Origin: Chitinophagaceae bacterium | GTDB lineage: Bacteria > Bacteroidota > Bacteroidia > Chitinophagales > Chitinophagaceae | Direction of reading: 5' to 3' | DNA length: 64,000 nt | Assembly (NCBI GenBank): GCA_019638595.1 | Contig: JAHBTJ010000032.1 | Span: 1-64,000, forward strand | Part shown: one piece after another, positions 11,143 through 20,624 of the stretch | Position numbering within the stretch: position 1 is the stretch's first letter | How the letters are laid out: each line of letters starts with the position of its first letter | The notes under the pieces: generated by a model | What the model was told of the DNA's origin: nothing | Databases searched by the model: none | The model's input: the letters and a program-made list of their open reading frames with translations, nothing else | Translations under genes and position numbers: made by a program

Positions 11143-13908
11143 ATGAAAATCAAACTCAACAAAAAGCTTTTGGTTGTTACCGGTATTCTTATTGTGGCGC
11201 TGGTAGTTACAACCGGCCTCATAGGTCACAAAAAAGTAGATTATAATACCGAGGTAAAACCCCTCTTCAACAAAAAATGTATTTCCTGCCATGGCGGCGT
11301 AAAAAAAGAAGGCGGTTTCAGTGTGCTGTTTCGTAATGAGGCGCTGGATACCACAGATGGAGGCAAGCCCGCCATCATTCCCGGGAGCCCGGAAAAAAGT
11401 GAAATGATCCGTCGGCTTACTTCTTCCGACCCGGAAGAAAGAATGCCTTATAAGCATGAGCCCCTTTCAAGGCAGGAAATTGACATGCTGAAGCAATGGA
11501 TAAAAGAAGGGGCGCAATGGGGCAATCACTGGGCGTATGTGCCGGTAGGCCCTGTTGAAGTACCGCGGGCAACATCAGGTTTCCGGGGCTTCTTATCCGG
11601 TAATAATAACTGGGTTAAAAATGATGTAGACCGTTTTATTTTTGAAAAGCTGCAAGAAGAAAAATTAGAGCCGTCGCCCATAGCAGATAAGGCAACCTTG
11701 TTGCGCAGGGTAAGTCTTGATATTACAGGTTTGCCTGCGTCGCAGGAACTGGCAGATAAGTTCCTTAAGGATGAAAACCCGGACGCGTACGAAAAGCTGG
11801 TAGATACTTTACTGGCTTCCCCGCAATATGGCGAGCGGTGGACCGCCATGTGGCTGGATATTGCACGGTATGCGGATAGCAAAGGATATGAAAAAGATGC
11901 ATACCGTTCCATATGGCGTTACAGGGACTGGCTGATCAACGCTTTTAATGCGGATAAGCCATATGATAGATTTTTAACAGAACAAATAGCCGGCGACCTG
12001 TTACCGGGCGCTACTGATGAGGAATACATAGCTACCGCTTTTAACCGCAACACCATGAACAATGATGAAGGCGGAACGGATAATGAAGAGTTCCGGACAG
12101 CGGCTATTATTGACAGGGTGAACACTACCTGGGAAACATTGATGAGCACTACATTCGCCTGTGTGCAGTGCCACAGCCATCCGTACGATCCTTTTAAGCT
12201 CGAAGAGTACTATAATTTCATGGCTTTCTTTAATAATACCCGCGATGAGGATATGCCGGGCGATTACCCGGTATTAAGAGAGTTTAATGATGCCGACCGG
12301 CAAAAGTTCGGGTGGTTAAAAAACTGGCTTGATGCCAATACTACCAAAGAAAAAGCAACAGAACTGATAACGCATGTTAAAAACTGGCAGCCCGCTGTTT
12401 ATGCCTATCATGCAGACAGGTTTGATAACTGCGAATTATCTGAAGTATACCTCGCGTTTCGTAAAAATTCAGGATGCCGTCTTGCCGCTGTTGACCTTAC
12501 GGGCAAAGAGCAATTGCTATATTATTACAATTCAAGGAGAGAAAATGGTAAATGGACCATTCACCTTGATAGTTCGAACGGACCTGTGATAGCTACCACG
12601 GTTATTCCGCCTACCAAAGGCTGGGAACTGCAAAAAATAGATATTCTTCCTTCGAACGGCGTGCATGACCTGTATTTCAGTTACAGCAATCCCGGCGTTG
12701 ATGCTGCAGAGGCAAACAATAACCTCATTAATTTTGACTGGTTCCTGTTCGCTTCGGCTTTTCCGGGGAAAGGACTTCCAGGCTACGACAGCGCGTATGC
12801 TTATTACAATTACCTGCTTACCACTCCTCCTTCCGCCAAAACACCTGTAATGATGGAAAATCCTCAAAACATGTTCCGTCGTACCTACATTTTTGAAAGA
12901 GGCAACTGGATGGCAAAAACCCATGAAGTAGAGCCGGATGTTCCTCATTCTTTAAACCCTTTGCCGGAAGGAGCGCCCCGCAACAGGCTGGGGTTGGCCA
13001 TGTGGCTGACCGACAAAAAAAATCCGCTTACCAGCCGCACGATGGTAAACCGTATCTGGGAACAGTTAATGGGGCAGGGCATTGCGGAAACACTGGAAGA
13101 CCTGGGCACGCAGGGTATTGCCCCCACGCATAAGGAATTACTCGACTGGCTGTCGTGGCAGTTTATGAATGAGTACAAATGGAGTATGAAGAAACTGATC
13201 AAAGCTATTGTAATGTCTGCCACCTATCAGCAGGATTCTAAAGTATCGAAAGAAACACTGGAAAAGGATCCCTTTAATAAATATTATGCACGTGGGCCAC
13301 GGGTAAGATTAAGCGCAGAACAGGTAAGAGACCAGGCGTTGGCTGTGTCGGGTCTGCTCAGTACTAAAATGTTCGGGCGCAGCGTAATGCCTTACCAGCC
13401 TAAAGGTATCTGGCAAACTCCTTACGATGGGGCGATCTGGAATAAAAGCGATGGGGAAGATCAGTATCGCCGTGCCATATATACTTACTGGAGGCGTTCG
13501 GCGCCCTACCCGTCTATGGTGAGCTTTGACGGGGTAGCCCGTGAGGTTTGCCTGGCGCGAAGGATCCGTACCAATACTCCCCTGCAGGCGCTTACAACCC
13601 TTAATGATAACGCCTATATTGAAATGGCGAGGTATTATGCGGAACGGATGCGTAAGGCGGGAGGCAGCGAACCCCGGCAACAGATCAGCAAGGGGTATGA
13701 AATGGCGATGTATCGCGCTATTGACAATGAAAAGTTAGACGCTTTGATGAAATTGTATGATCATGCTTTAAAGGAGTTCGAAAAAGACAGGGATAAAGCC
13801 TGTGAAATGAATGGCGATGATACGCGGGAAACAAGCCCGGAAAAAGCGGCCCTGGTACTGGTAGCAAACGCTATGCTGAACCTGGATGAGGTGATTACGA
13901 AGAATTGA
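11143..13908 (+). CDS. DUF1549/DUF1553 c-type cytochrome with CBM6-like insert
   Basis: 921 residues. An N-terminal anchor helix (residues 9-28) is followed by a heme-binding CISCH motif at residues 46-50 (PSCyt1), DUF1549 (LRRVSLDITGLPAS, WLDIARYADSKG, near residues 165-380) and DUF1553 (NRLGLAMWLTDKKNPLTSRT to NTPLQALTTLND, near 610-900). Between them, at about residues 430-540, is a region resembling a carbohydrate-binding module family 6: it ends in GVHDLYFSY and then INFDWFLF. This suggests an exported electron-transfer protein that binds a glycan (inference). It is the first gene of a probable operon with the DUF1501, TIM-barrel and membrane-cytochrome genes. A GxxExxY-bearing repeat unit begins five bases after its stop. 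Confidence 0.92.
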   Translation: MKIKLNKKLLVVTGILIVALVVTTGLIGHKKVDYNTEVKPLFNKKCISCHGGVKKEGGFSVLFRNEALDTTDGGKPAIIPGSPEKSEMIRRLTSSDPEERMPYKHEPLSRQEIDMLKQWIKEGAQWGNHWAYVPVGPVEVPRATSGFRGFLSGNNNWVKNDVDRFIFEKLQEEKLEPSPIADKATLLRRVSLDITGLPASQELADKFLKDENPDAYEKLVDTLLASPQYGERWTAMWLDIARYADSKGYEKDAYRSIWRYRDWLINAFNADKPYDRFLTEQIAGDLLPGATDEEYIATAFNRNTMNNDEGGTDNEEFRTAAIIDRVNTTWETLMSTTFACVQCHSHPYDPFKLEEYYNFMAFFNNTRDEDMPGDYPVLREFNDADRQKFGWLKNWLDANTTKEKATELITHVKNWQPAVYAYHADRFDNCELSEVYLAFRKNSGCRLAAVDLTGKEQLLYYYNSRRENGKWTIHLDSSNGPVIATTVIPPTKGWELQKIDILPSNGVHDLYFSYSNPGVDAAEANNNLINFDWFLFASAFPGKGLPGYDSAYAYYNYLLTTPPSAKTPVMMENPQNMFRRTYIFERGNWMAKTHEVEPDVPHSLNPLPEGAPRNRLGLAMWLTDKKNPLTSRTMVNRIWEQLMGQGIAETLEDLGTQGIAPTHKELLDWLSWQFMNEYKWSMKKLIKAIVMSATYQQDSKVSKETLEKDPFNKYYARGPRVRLSAEQVRDQALAVSGLLSTKMFGRSVMPYQPKGIWQTPYDGAIWNKSDGEDQYRRAIYTYWRRSAPYPSMVSFDGVAREVCLARRIRTNTPLQALTTLNDNAYIEMARYYAERMRKAGGSEPRQQISKGYEMAMYRAIDNEKLDALMKLYDHALKEFEKDRDKACEMNGDDTRETSPEKAALVLVANAMLNLDEVITKN

Positions 13909-13912
13909 TTTC

Positions 13913-14460
13913 ACCACATAGGTATATAGAAACAAAGGTTGTTAGATGTTTGACCAGGGTACTGTTACAAAATAATACTGCTAATCTGAAAAAATGAAAA
14001 ACACACAAAAGGAGATAGATGAGCTTTCCTATCAGATCATAGGATGGGCTATTGAAGGTCACAGGTATCTGGGGCCGGGGTTGCTGGAAAGTATTTATGA
14101 AAAGTGCTTTTTAAAAGAACTTAAAACTGGAAGCCTGGTATATAGAAGCCGGGAATGGTTATCTGTAATGTATAAAGGTGAGAAGCTTGAGGCTTGATGT
14201 ATTGGTGGAAGATACAATTCTTGTGGAACTGAAGAGTGTAGAAACGTTGCTTGCGGTGCATGAAGCGCAATTACTCACTTATATGAAATTGCTTGAAAAG
14301 CCGAAGGGGATTTTAATCAATTTCAATTGTACTAATATTTTCAGGGAAGGTCAAAAAACATTGGTCAATCATTTATTTGCGGAACTGCCCTTTTGCTGAA
14401 TAATATATTTGTAAGCATTAAAGACTTAAAATTATCTATATTTCTATATCCCTATGTGGT
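13913..14460 (+). mobile_element. Inverted-repeat-bounded unit carrying a GxxExxY gene
   Basis: ACCACATAGGTATATAGAAA at 13913-13932 and the inverted copy of ACCACATAGGGATATAGAAA at 14441-14460 match at 19 of 20 positions. They enclose the broken GxxExxY gene. Without the unit, the DUF1549/DUF1553 stop (13908) and the DUF1501 start (14474) would be about 17 bases apart, like the other spacers of this operon, so an insertion is likely. No convincing target duplication is visible. Calling it mobile is inference. Confidence 0.6.
13994..14399 (+). pseudogene. GxxExxY protein (PDDEXK_3 nuclease-like), frameshifted
   Basis: Two reading frames together make one GxxExxY protein. The first part, 13994-14197, holds the name motif GLLESIY and runs to YKGEKLEA before a stop. 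The second continues from about 14187 in another frame as RLDVLVEDTILVELKSVETL, containing the D...ELK core of a PD-(D/E)XK fold, and ends at 14399 with the expected VNHLF-type C-terminus. Family members have a few extra residues between KLE and YRLD, so a small deletion not divisible by three (about 8 or 11 bases near 14185) best explains the break. No slippery run is present, so programmed frameshifting is unlikely. The family is small (about 125 residues) with unknown biological role. Confidence 0.8.
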
Positions 14461-14473
14461 AAACAAAGAAGTT

Positions 14474-15991
14474 ATGACACAAAAAGAATTACAGGCTCAA
14501 AAGCTTGCGCAGGAGGCGAATTATGAACAGTTGCGGTATGTTACCCGCAGGCATTTTTTGCGCGATAGTGTTACCGGTTTGGGCGCGATGGCTTTTGGAT
14601 CGTTGCTGGCCGGTTGCGACTGGCTGGGCTCGAAAGACAATGGAGTAGCGGCTAATATTTTTGACAGCGCTAATCCTATGGCCGGAAGGCCTCCTATGTT
14701 CCCCGGCAAAGCAAAATCGGTTATTTACCTGCACATGGCGGGAGCGCCTTCGCAGCTTGAATTATTTGATTATAAGCCCGATCTTCAAAAGCTCGACGGG
14801 CAGCAATGTCCCCAGTCCTTGCTGGAAGGAAAGCGTTTTGCTTTTATCAGGGGCGTTCCTAAAATGCTGGGCCCGTATGGAAATTTTGCCCAGCGCGGGC
14901 AGAGTGGCGCATGGATATCCGACCACCTTCCTCATTTAACAACAGTAGCAGATGAGCTGAGCTTTTTGAAAGCGGTGCAAACCGATCAGTTCAATCATGC
15001 ACCTGCGCAGCTACTCATGCATACAGGCTCCGCCAGGTTAGGCAGGCCAAGTATGGGCGCCTGGGCCAGTTACGGGTTGGGCACCGAAAACAGTAATCTT
15101 CCGGGCTTTGTTGTTTTAACGTCGGGCGGTAAAAGCCCGGATGCCGGTAAAAGCGTTTGGGGAAGCGGATTTCTGCCATCGGTATACCAGGGAGTGCAGT
15201 GCCGGTCGGAGGGCGATCCTGTTTTGTTCATTAACAATCCCGAAGGGATAGATAAAGATCTTCGCCGCGCCTCTATTGATGCCATTAACGAGGTAAATAA
15301 AAAGTCGTACGAGGAATTTAAGGATCCGGAAATCCTTTCACGCATATCCCAATACGAAATGGCGTATAAAATGCAGATGTCGGTTCCCGAAGCGATGGAT
15401 ATAAGCGATGAGCCTGCTTACATACATGAAATGTATGGCACCCAGCCCGGTAAAGAAAGCTTTGCCAACAACTGTTTGCTGGCAAGGAAACTGGTTGAAA
15501 AAGGTGTACGGTATGTTCAGTTGTTCGACTGGGGATGGGATTCGCACGGTACATATGCGGGCGACTCCATTGAAATTGCGTTTGTAAACAAATGCAGGAG
15601 TGTAGACAGGGCTTCTACCGCGTTATTGCTTGATTTGAAACAAAGGGGATTACTGGACGAAACACTTGTGGTATGGGGTGGAGAATTTGGCCGTACTCCT
15701 ATGCAGGAAAACAGAGAAGGTAAGCAACAGTCTTTTAAAGGAAGAGATCACCACGCCGAGGCATTTACCATATGGATGGCAGGCGGTGGTATTAAAAGAG
15801 GAACGAGCTTTGGAGAAACAGACCCTATAGGGTATAGTCCTGTAAGCGGTAAAGTTACTCCGTTCGATATACAGGCAACCATTCTCAATCAACTGGGTTT
15901 TGATCACGAAAAATTCACTTACCAGTTCCAGGGGCGCCCGTTCAGGCTCACCGATGTGCATGGGAGAGTGATCAACGAAATTGTAGCATAA
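14474..15991 (+). CDS. DUF1501 protein, Tat-exported
   Basis: 505 residues from the ATG at 14474 (MTQKELQAQ); upstream in-frame codons fall in the inverted repeat and are not conserved-looking. The twin-arginine signal RRHFLRD is followed by a hydrophobic stretch ending in LLAGC, so this is probably a Tat substrate and possibly a lipoprotein. The body is DUF1501, an alkaline-phosphatase/sulfatase-like fold (VWGGEFGRTPMQE, GRDHHAEAFTIWMAGGG, HGRVINEI). DUF1501 genes regularly pair with DUF1549/DUF1553 genes in Planctomycetes and Bacteroidota; the activity is unknown. It is second in the operon, 48 bases before the TIM-barrel gene. Confidence 0.92.
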   Translation: MTQKELQAQKLAQEANYEQLRYVTRRHFLRDSVTGLGAMAFGSLLAGCDWLGSKDNGVAANIFDSANPMAGRPPMFPGKAKSVIYLHMAGAPSQLELFDYKPDLQKLDGQQCPQSLLEGKRFAFIRGVPKMLGPYGNFAQRGQSGAWISDHLPHLTTVADELSFLKAVQTDQFNHAPAQLLMHTGSARLGRPSMGAWASYGLGTENSNLPGFVVLTSGGKSPDAGKSVWGSGFLPSVYQGVQCRSEGDPVLFINNPEGIDKDLRRASIDAINEVNKKSYEEFKDPEILSRISQYEMAYKMQMSVPEAMDISDEPAYIHEMYGTQPGKESFANNCLLARKLVEKGVRYVQLFDWGWDSHGTYAGDSIEIAFVNKCRSVDRASTALLLDLKQRGLLDETLVVWGGEFGRTPMQENREGKQQSFKGRDHHAEAFTIWMAGGGIKRGTSFGETDPIGYSPVSGKVTPFDIQATILNQLGFDHEKFTYQFQGRPFRLTDVHGRVINEIVA

Positions 15992-20442: not shown

Positions 20443-20624
20443 ACCACACAGGAATATAGGGAAGATAGGAAAAGGGGTGTTGGACGAAATGTAAATGTTG
20501 AACATTATTACAAATGCCAGGCAACTTTACTTTCGGAGAGAAAAGTTTTCCCTCGCAAAAGTTACATTTAACTACAGTGTTCGGGTTAATTGAAATAACT
20601 ATGTTACCTCTGTTCCTATGTGGT
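20443..20624. repeat. 182-bp inverted-repeat unit without a gene
   Basis: ACCACACAGGAATATAGGGA (20443-20462) and the inverted ACCACATAGGAACAGAGGTA (20605-20624) match at 16 of 20 positions and belong to the same family as the ends of the unit at 13913-14460. A nested pair AAATGTAA/TTACATTT (20487-20494 and 20562-20569) would extend a cruciform. No reading frame of note lies between. The right end overlaps the GHL10-like gene and supplies its TAG stop codon. Confidence 0.6.

Follow-up and report, generated by a model that had tools for sequence, protein, structure and literature searches.

In the 64,000-nucleotide stretch of DNA analysed here (the window), a 548-bp unit bounded by inverted arms lies at positions 13913-14460 between two protein-coding genes. 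The left terminal arm (13913-13937, + strand) reads ACCACATAGGTATATAGAAACAAAG and, by eye, features three iterations of a ~8-nt word (CACATAG / TATATAG / AACAAAG). The right terminal arm (14436-14460, - strand) is its inverted copy, with the inward reading ACCACATAGGGATATAGAAATATAG. Near-identical inverted ends had been described in an earlier, sequence-only reading of this DNA, and this is borne out by agreement at 19 of the outer 20 bases; a repeat search returned a 28-nt inverted pair of 86% identity, and the right arm has no mismatch to the arm pattern while the left has one. Profile searches identify the upstream neighbour (11143-13908, + strand) as a PSCyt1/PSCyt2/PSD1 (DUF1549/DUF1553) protein with orthologues in relatives, and the downstream neighbour (14474-15991, + strand) as a DUF1501 protein. 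The unit is tightly framed, with 4 bases (13909-13912) between the upstream stop codon and its left end and 13 bases (14461-14473) between its right end and the downstream ATG. With the upstream stop codon ending at 13908 and the next ATG starting at 14474, the two genes would be only 17 bases apart without the unit, and the next intergenic spacers in the series are 48 and 25 bases; the coordinates agree with the earlier statement that closely spaced genes are split here. Terminal inverted repeats (TIRs) around a mobility gene, by which a classical insertion sequence is recognised, are found in the window unit.

The gene between the arms is a relic of a GxxExxY / PDDEXK_3 nuclease gene (13994-14399, + strand) that is spread over two frames, 13994-14197, ending in TGA, and 14187-14399. 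The N-terminal piece (frame 13994-14194, TGA at 14195-14197) matches positions 2-58 of PF13366 and the C-terminal piece, in the other frame and with its stop at 14397-14399, matches positions 62-109; the E-values of the two pieces are 2.7e-12 and 2.7e-16, and PF13366 was the only Pfam profile matched by either. TIGR04256 is covered at positions 1-58 and 56-109, with scores of 61.7 and 46.8 bits against a cut-off of 35, which places both pieces in the family. The frame is broken after the GxxExxY motif and before the D-x9-ExK motif, and owing to this frameshift there is no single intact reading frame. The family assignment made in the sequence-only reading was confirmed, but the gene that it placed between the ends is broken, and with its frame lost the window copy is probably inert. 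Among 198 flank records, the proteins closest to the N-terminal piece, itself aside, are the same-site copies of the congeners G001, G005 and G003 (56-60% identity); a G006:C9 protein is 53% identical, and the protein of locus L202, which belongs to another word class, is 57% identical.

The wider protein family has the features of a nuclease. D76, E86 and K88 are invariant in 71 GxxExxY proteins, and the predicted structure of a GxxExxY protein (pLDDT 95) has the PD-(D/E)XK nuclease SSO0001 as its best structural match. Among the matches listed from the PDB fold searches there is no DNA transposase, and the R2 retrotransposon protein matches weakly (Foldseek E 0.077); a sequence search of solved structures gave a best E of 0.41. 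Three open-frame relatives searched against Pfam at E 0.001 matched PF13366 only, with no HUH/Y1 transposase (PF01797), and one GxxExxY query at E 1e-6 found no match in phage records. The PADLOC Cas4 profile matched weakly, at E 1.2e-4 in one of the two proteins scanned and 0.018 in the other. The fold and the D...ExK residues are common to GxxExxY proteins and the Cas4 / lambda-exonuclease / Hjc group of PD-(D/E)XK nucleases.

Comparison of the DUF1549-DUF1501 locus across relatives reveals both occupied and unit-free states. The pair occurs without the unit in nine genomes, with spacers (stop codon excluded) of 6-100 bases: 6 in G002, 9 in G032, 10 in G034, 18 in both G008 and G027, 19 in G019, 61 in G009, 78 in G010 and 100 in G004. 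Loci of this kind had been sought as a check on the earlier reading, and unit-free states were found at other sites as well. Second copies of the pair have spacers of 73 bases in the window's own genome and 19 in G007. The 852-base spacer of G018 holds a different insert, in which no ACCACATAGG end is visible by eye. The best match in G007 and that in G024 have no DUF1501 match downstream within the available sequence, and the locus sequences of G003 and G006 run into contig ends. Open-frame GxxExxY genes beside the same arm word are present at the window-unit site in the congeners G005, G003 and G001; the spacer is 601 bases in G005, and the G003 contig ends inside palindromes. In G001 (L054, G001:C454), where the spacer is 1,211 bases, eight tandem ~84-bp ATAG palindromes lie ahead of the GxxExxY gene. 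The unit is absent from G004, the closest genome (first protein 88% identical), which implies either a loss in that genome or more than one insertion. Inspection of four sites by eye resolved no target-site duplication, the unit-free sites being too diverged to place an exact junction.

Further units occur in the same genome. A gene-less unit of 182 bp lies at 20443-20624, with the ends ACCACACAGGAATATAGGGAAGATAG ... inverted ACCACATAGGAACAGAGGTAACATAG. Nested in its loop, at about 20493-20587 on the + strand, is an unrelated dispersed repeat of ~95 bp, which is found elsewhere in the genome (six or seven further copies) and in congeners. The 182-bp unit reported earlier as sharing the ends of the first is real, but some 95 bp of its interior belong to this separate repeat. 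At the corresponding site, the nearest relative, G004, has a simple ~105-bp palindrome with a short loop; a check of 310 bases found no such end, with up to one mismatch allowed, in G002, G003, G005 and G006, which match on both flanks, or in G007 and G008, which match on one. A third gene-less unit of the genome lies at C34:97922-98053. At C23:144684-145025 (L009) there is a second GxxExxY gene, which has an open frame, belongs to another clade and features flanks of the TCTGAACC...GGTTCAGA type. The 10-mer ACCACATAGG has 9 matches in this genome and its reversed control also has 9, a lack of excess that counts against the earlier reading, and the palindrome pattern CACATAG-N(40-70)-CTATGTG has 0 matches there. 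By these two results, the window's own genome holds few, decayed units.

The arrangement seen at the window locus is common around genes of this family. GxxExxY genes are present in 42 of the 58 genomes, the window's own included. The family search gave 137 rows, from which 15 fragment rows were dropped along with G045:C18 (masked bases, contig end), G011:C597 and G030:C126; the 119 rows retained correspond to 118 genes because the two window rows were merged, and 116 genes entered the arm test since the flanks of G023:C301 and G006:C46 were too short. Inverted arms, defined as an inverted match with a score of at least 12 between the 250 bp on either side of the gene, surround 82 of these 116 genes, which come from 40 genomes. 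When flanks from different genomes were paired, 75 of 1,160 pairs reached the threshold, in a control that itself contains related repeats, and among 39 other window ORFs, each at least about 200 aa long, 2 reached the same score, a control drawn from one genome only. These two controls speak against explaining the arms as chance or as terminators. The 34 genes below the threshold include some with one-sided arrays and some with nothing obvious. A second, named sample, comprising the best 80 of at least 573 confirmed relatives and sharing two loci (L170, L171) with the first, gave inverted arms at 61 of 80 loci against 80 of 800 mismatched pairs; its records are labelled Bacteroidota, Ignavibacteriota, Chlorobiota, Calditrichota, Acidobacteria, Verrucomicrobiota, Pseudomonadota and Sumerlaeota, and many are metagenome bins. 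The recurrence across genomes for which the sequence-only reading had called is seen in both samples.

By eye, the arms consist of iterated words, such as ACCACAGAGGCACAGAG, ACCACTAAGACACTAAG, AACCATTAAGGCATTAAG, ACCACGGAGACACGGAG and CCACGAATGCACGAAT, and each arm is an array of about 2-4 copies of a ~8-nt word. The ACCACATAGG end is limited to one set of GxxExxY lineages, and others have other words in a similar frame, so that its absence from a given gene is no refutation. GxxExxY genes that lack the window's own repeats, which had been named beforehand as grounds for abandoning the idea, are indeed common, but they belong to these other lineages with other words and the idea survives them.

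Eight word classes, defined after the flanks had been seen, cover 155 rows, with 35 of 190 proteins left without a class. On a tree of the 190 proteins, word class changes 37 times compared with 104 times when shuffled, and 0 of 200 shuffles were as low; the tree is built on 114 columns and has many unresolved forks, and shuffling ignores relatedness. The ATAG class, which includes the ends of the window unit, changes 5 times over 25 rows and the TCTGAA class 2 times over 22 rows, while the AAAG and AGAG classes are loosely clustered on the tree, with 21 and 20 changes. In 115 of 155 cases a protein agrees in word class with its closest relative from a different genome, and 13 of 92 pairs of GxxExxY genes within one genome share a class. 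Judged from these sequence comparisons, the arm word diverges with the nuclease lineage and not with the host genome.

Palindromes that share these words also occur without a gene. The pattern CACATAG-N(40-70)-CTATGTG has 56 matches in G006, 22 in G030, 16 in G001, 15 in G003, 13 in G027, 11 in G002, 8 in G035 and 5 each in G005 and G046, compared with 0 or 1 per genome for its reversed control. CACGAAT-N(14-44)-ATTCGTG has 61 matches in G008, 23 in G006, 18 in G007, 16 in G009, 12 in G032, 7 in G003 and 4 in G010, compared with 0 to 3 for the reversed control. The counts are of pattern matches, and a single palindrome may contribute several times. Dispersed palindromes that share the sequence of gene flanks, by which a REPtron is recognised, are thereby present in several relatives, with 0 in the window's own genome by the CACATAG pattern. 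Six hand-picked palindromes gave better folds than sequence with its letters shuffled (z -1.9 to -7.6).

Co-occurrence of palindromes and genes was assessed over the 58 genomes after subtracting palindromes in the 400-bp flanks of GxxExxY genes. An ATAG-flanked gene is present in 6 of the 8 genomes with at least three ATAG palindromes and in 3 of the 50 others (p 5e-5), a tally that counts the window's own broken gene; the p-values at thresholds of 1, 2, 3 and 5 palindromes are 2.6e-5, 1.5e-4, 5.2e-5 and 5.2e-5. Similarly, a GAAT-flanked gene is present in 6 of the 10 genomes with at least two GAAT palindromes and in 1 of the 48 others (p 3e-5), where G039 is classed as GAAT-flanked on two words only; the four thresholds (1, 2, 3 and 5) give 5.7e-4, 3.4e-5, 2.5e-3 and 1.1e-3. 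Crossing the classes, with the palindrome of one and the gene of the other, gives p 0.24 and 0.30 at a threshold of 3. As the genomes are related (12 of 58 belong to one genus), these Fisher p-values are inflated and overstate independence. There are exceptions: G027 lacks any GxxExxY match despite its 13 ATAG palindromes, G002 lacks an ATAG-class gene despite its 11, and GAAT palindromes occur without a GAAT-class gene in G032 (12), G003 (7) and also G010.

A third site captures several states of a single unit. Open-frame GxxExxY genes are present there in G004, G003 and G008, the gene of G002 has an internal TGA, and the unit of G006 runs into contig ends. By eye, G000, the window's own genome, retains both the arms and roughly 75 bp from the gene's 3' end, G005 retains pieces of both gene ends, and G007 and G010 have plain spacers. 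Because the deleted relics keep pieces of the gene, deletion from a gene-bearing to a gene-less state can be followed at this site. The relics of G000 and G005 are gene-less derivatives with the ends of their parent, as in a MITE, the autonomy of the parent being putative. Tandem arrays are found at L027 (G010) and L147 (G046), where the repeated unit is a palindrome plus the apparent first codons of a GxxExxY gene and, in G010, the last codons too. On a plasmid record of Bacteroides finegoldii, a unit with ACCACAGAGG ends lies between radA and an FAD protein gene; the same gap is 13 bp in Parabacteroides distasonis and holds other sequence in Phocaeicola massiliensis. Polymorphism for a unit is seen in all at four places: DUF1549-DUF1501, the site of the second window unit, the third site and radA-FAD.

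Taken together, we consider it likely that the 548-bp unit derives by decay from a small mobile unit, in which a GxxExxY nuclease gene lies between inverted terminal arms of arrayed words, similar to REP/RAYT but with a PD-(D/E)XK enzyme and with putative cleavage, movement and footprint. What the sequences themselves show is that the units are bounded, that gene and arms go together, that sites vary in occupancy, that words are tied to nuclease clade, that gene-less palindromes are found mostly in genomes with the gene of their word, and that internal deletion took place at one site. The link between nuclease and repeat is one that we infer from position, clade and co-occurrence. The idea of a compact inserted element whose sole protein is a small nuclease, first raised in the sequence-only reading by analogy with REP/RAYT, is supported by the unit-free orthologous loci and by the repeat-flanked GxxExxY genes across genomes. 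Mechanistically, the nuclease may recognise its own palindrome as a duplex, hairpin or cruciform, and may cut at that palindrome or at the target. Such cutting would allow gene-bearing units to move and gene-less palindromes to spread in trans, a spread that would resemble the role thought for TnpA-REP (RAYT) on REPs, with a non-homologous enzyme.

An alternative possibility is that the palindromes spread by other means and that the nuclease gene is a homing-type parasite, whose product cleaves palindromes that have no gene, after which repair copies the gene into their loops. Nucleases of the PD-(D/E)XK fold act as homing enzymes elsewhere, and it fits this model that in simple units an inverted repeat carries the gene in its loop and that gene-less versions with the same arms abound. 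However, the third-site relics keep gene pieces, so that the gene-less state there came from the gene-bearing one, and homing alone puts no palindromes at new sites; overall, we regard this explanation as unlikely. It is quite improbable that a resident nuclease gene, perhaps one with a role in repair, has the inverted repeats as its terminators or regulatory sites, and that presence and absence reflect gene loss. Hairpins could end transcription, and GxxExxY genes are common in these genomes, yet the gene has the same arm on both sides, copies without a gene are scattered, units separate genes that are adjacent elsewhere, and genes within one genome usually differ in word.

The palindromes could also be REPs moved by RAYT/Y1 transposases, with GxxExxY as a bystander or a domesticated repair nuclease. 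Y1_Tnp (PF01797) genes are indeed widespread, occurring in 45 of the 58 genomes, including G027 with its palindromes and no GxxExxY match. However, when one Y1 locus per genome was taken from more than 150 matches and flanks of 300 and 400 bp were scanned (250 bp for GxxExxY genes), inverted flanks with a score of at least 12 were found at 10 of 30 loci and were of other sequences, and two or more GxxExxY-type words were carried by 2 of 30, which leaves the idea that RAYT moves these repeats unsupported. In 15 locus records, not one of the 37 distinct ACCACATAG ends (0 of 56 with duplicates) has GTAG immediately before it, a count for this word class only, and the words track the GxxExxY tree. 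Since the RAYT loci examined mostly lack such words and no GTAG precedes the ACCACATAG ends, the repeats look like the GxxExxY gene's own, and movement by RAYT is very improbable indeed. Four loci (L264, L267, L273 and L277) have Y1/RAYT-type genes with hairpin flanks of their own, such as AAGCCCGAAGGGCTT, and apparently represent a separate REP-like system. Finally, the view that a pseudogene of this single genome happens by chance to lie within an inverted repeat would fit the lack of excess of ACCACATAGG there but can hardly be credited, as it is contradicted by the congeners, whose gene-bearing units at this place share the arm word, and by the general arm statistics (82 of 116, and 61 of the best 80 of at least 573 relatives).

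If the 548-bp unit is indeed a decayed mobile unit of this kind, a protein family of unknown function would gain a role and a set of short intergenic repeats with no known mover would gain one, which would amount to a second, enzymatically unrelated solution to the task ascribed to RAYTs. We lean slightly towards a broader view, in which the GxxExxY nucleases of several phyla form their own class of mobile palindromic elements parallel to REP/RAYT. Each clade would recognise a word of ~8 nt that is iterated within a common frame, roughly ACCAC-NN-AG repeated, and spread gene-less palindromes in trans, with specificity having diversified many times. If so, GxxExxY would be the source of many word-type intergenic repeats in Bacteroidota and in other phyla. 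Because the repeat words vary by clade while the frame is kept, these units may constitute a natural experiment in the change of DNA specificity by a nuclease of ~130 residues, and such change is directly testable with clade pairs that are present in one genome.

No paper linking GxxExxY to repeats was found in the open PMC literature, where excerpts name GxxExxY in a reverse transcriptase survey and in an algal virus gene list; subscription papers and preprints lie outside this scope, so that the term undescribed is provisional. REP/RAYT systems are portrayed as dispersed short palindromes with one small nuclease gene that is flanked by the same repeats, with co-variation of enzyme and repeat (PMC8266576; PMC3733652) and with palindromes also in genomes that lack the gene. 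GxxExxY units are similar to REPtrons in all of these respects: dispersed palindromes, a repeat-flanked single nuclease gene, co-variation of enzyme and repeat, and palindromes in gene-free genomes. They differ in that the enzyme is a PD-(D/E)XK protein (PF13366) as opposed to an HUH tyrosine transposase, the ends are built from repeats of a ~8-nt word, with GTAG absent from the foot of the ACCACATAG ends, and the gene often sits between the two arms of one inverted repeat. Like insertion sequences and MITEs, GxxExxY units feature TIRs around one gene and internally deleted derivatives; unlike insertion sequences, they have no recognised transposase family, and at the four sites inspected by eye no target-site duplication could be made out. 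TIRtrons, described as TIR-flanked Y1 transposases whose TIRs also occur elsewhere (PMC3733652), likewise place one small nuclease gene between TIRs that are found elsewhere, although their enzyme is not homologous to GxxExxY. Ultimately, comparison of sequences and gene order suggests that the GxxExxY unit is best read as working in the manner of a REPtron or of a small insertion sequence, but by means of an enzyme that is not homologous to theirs.
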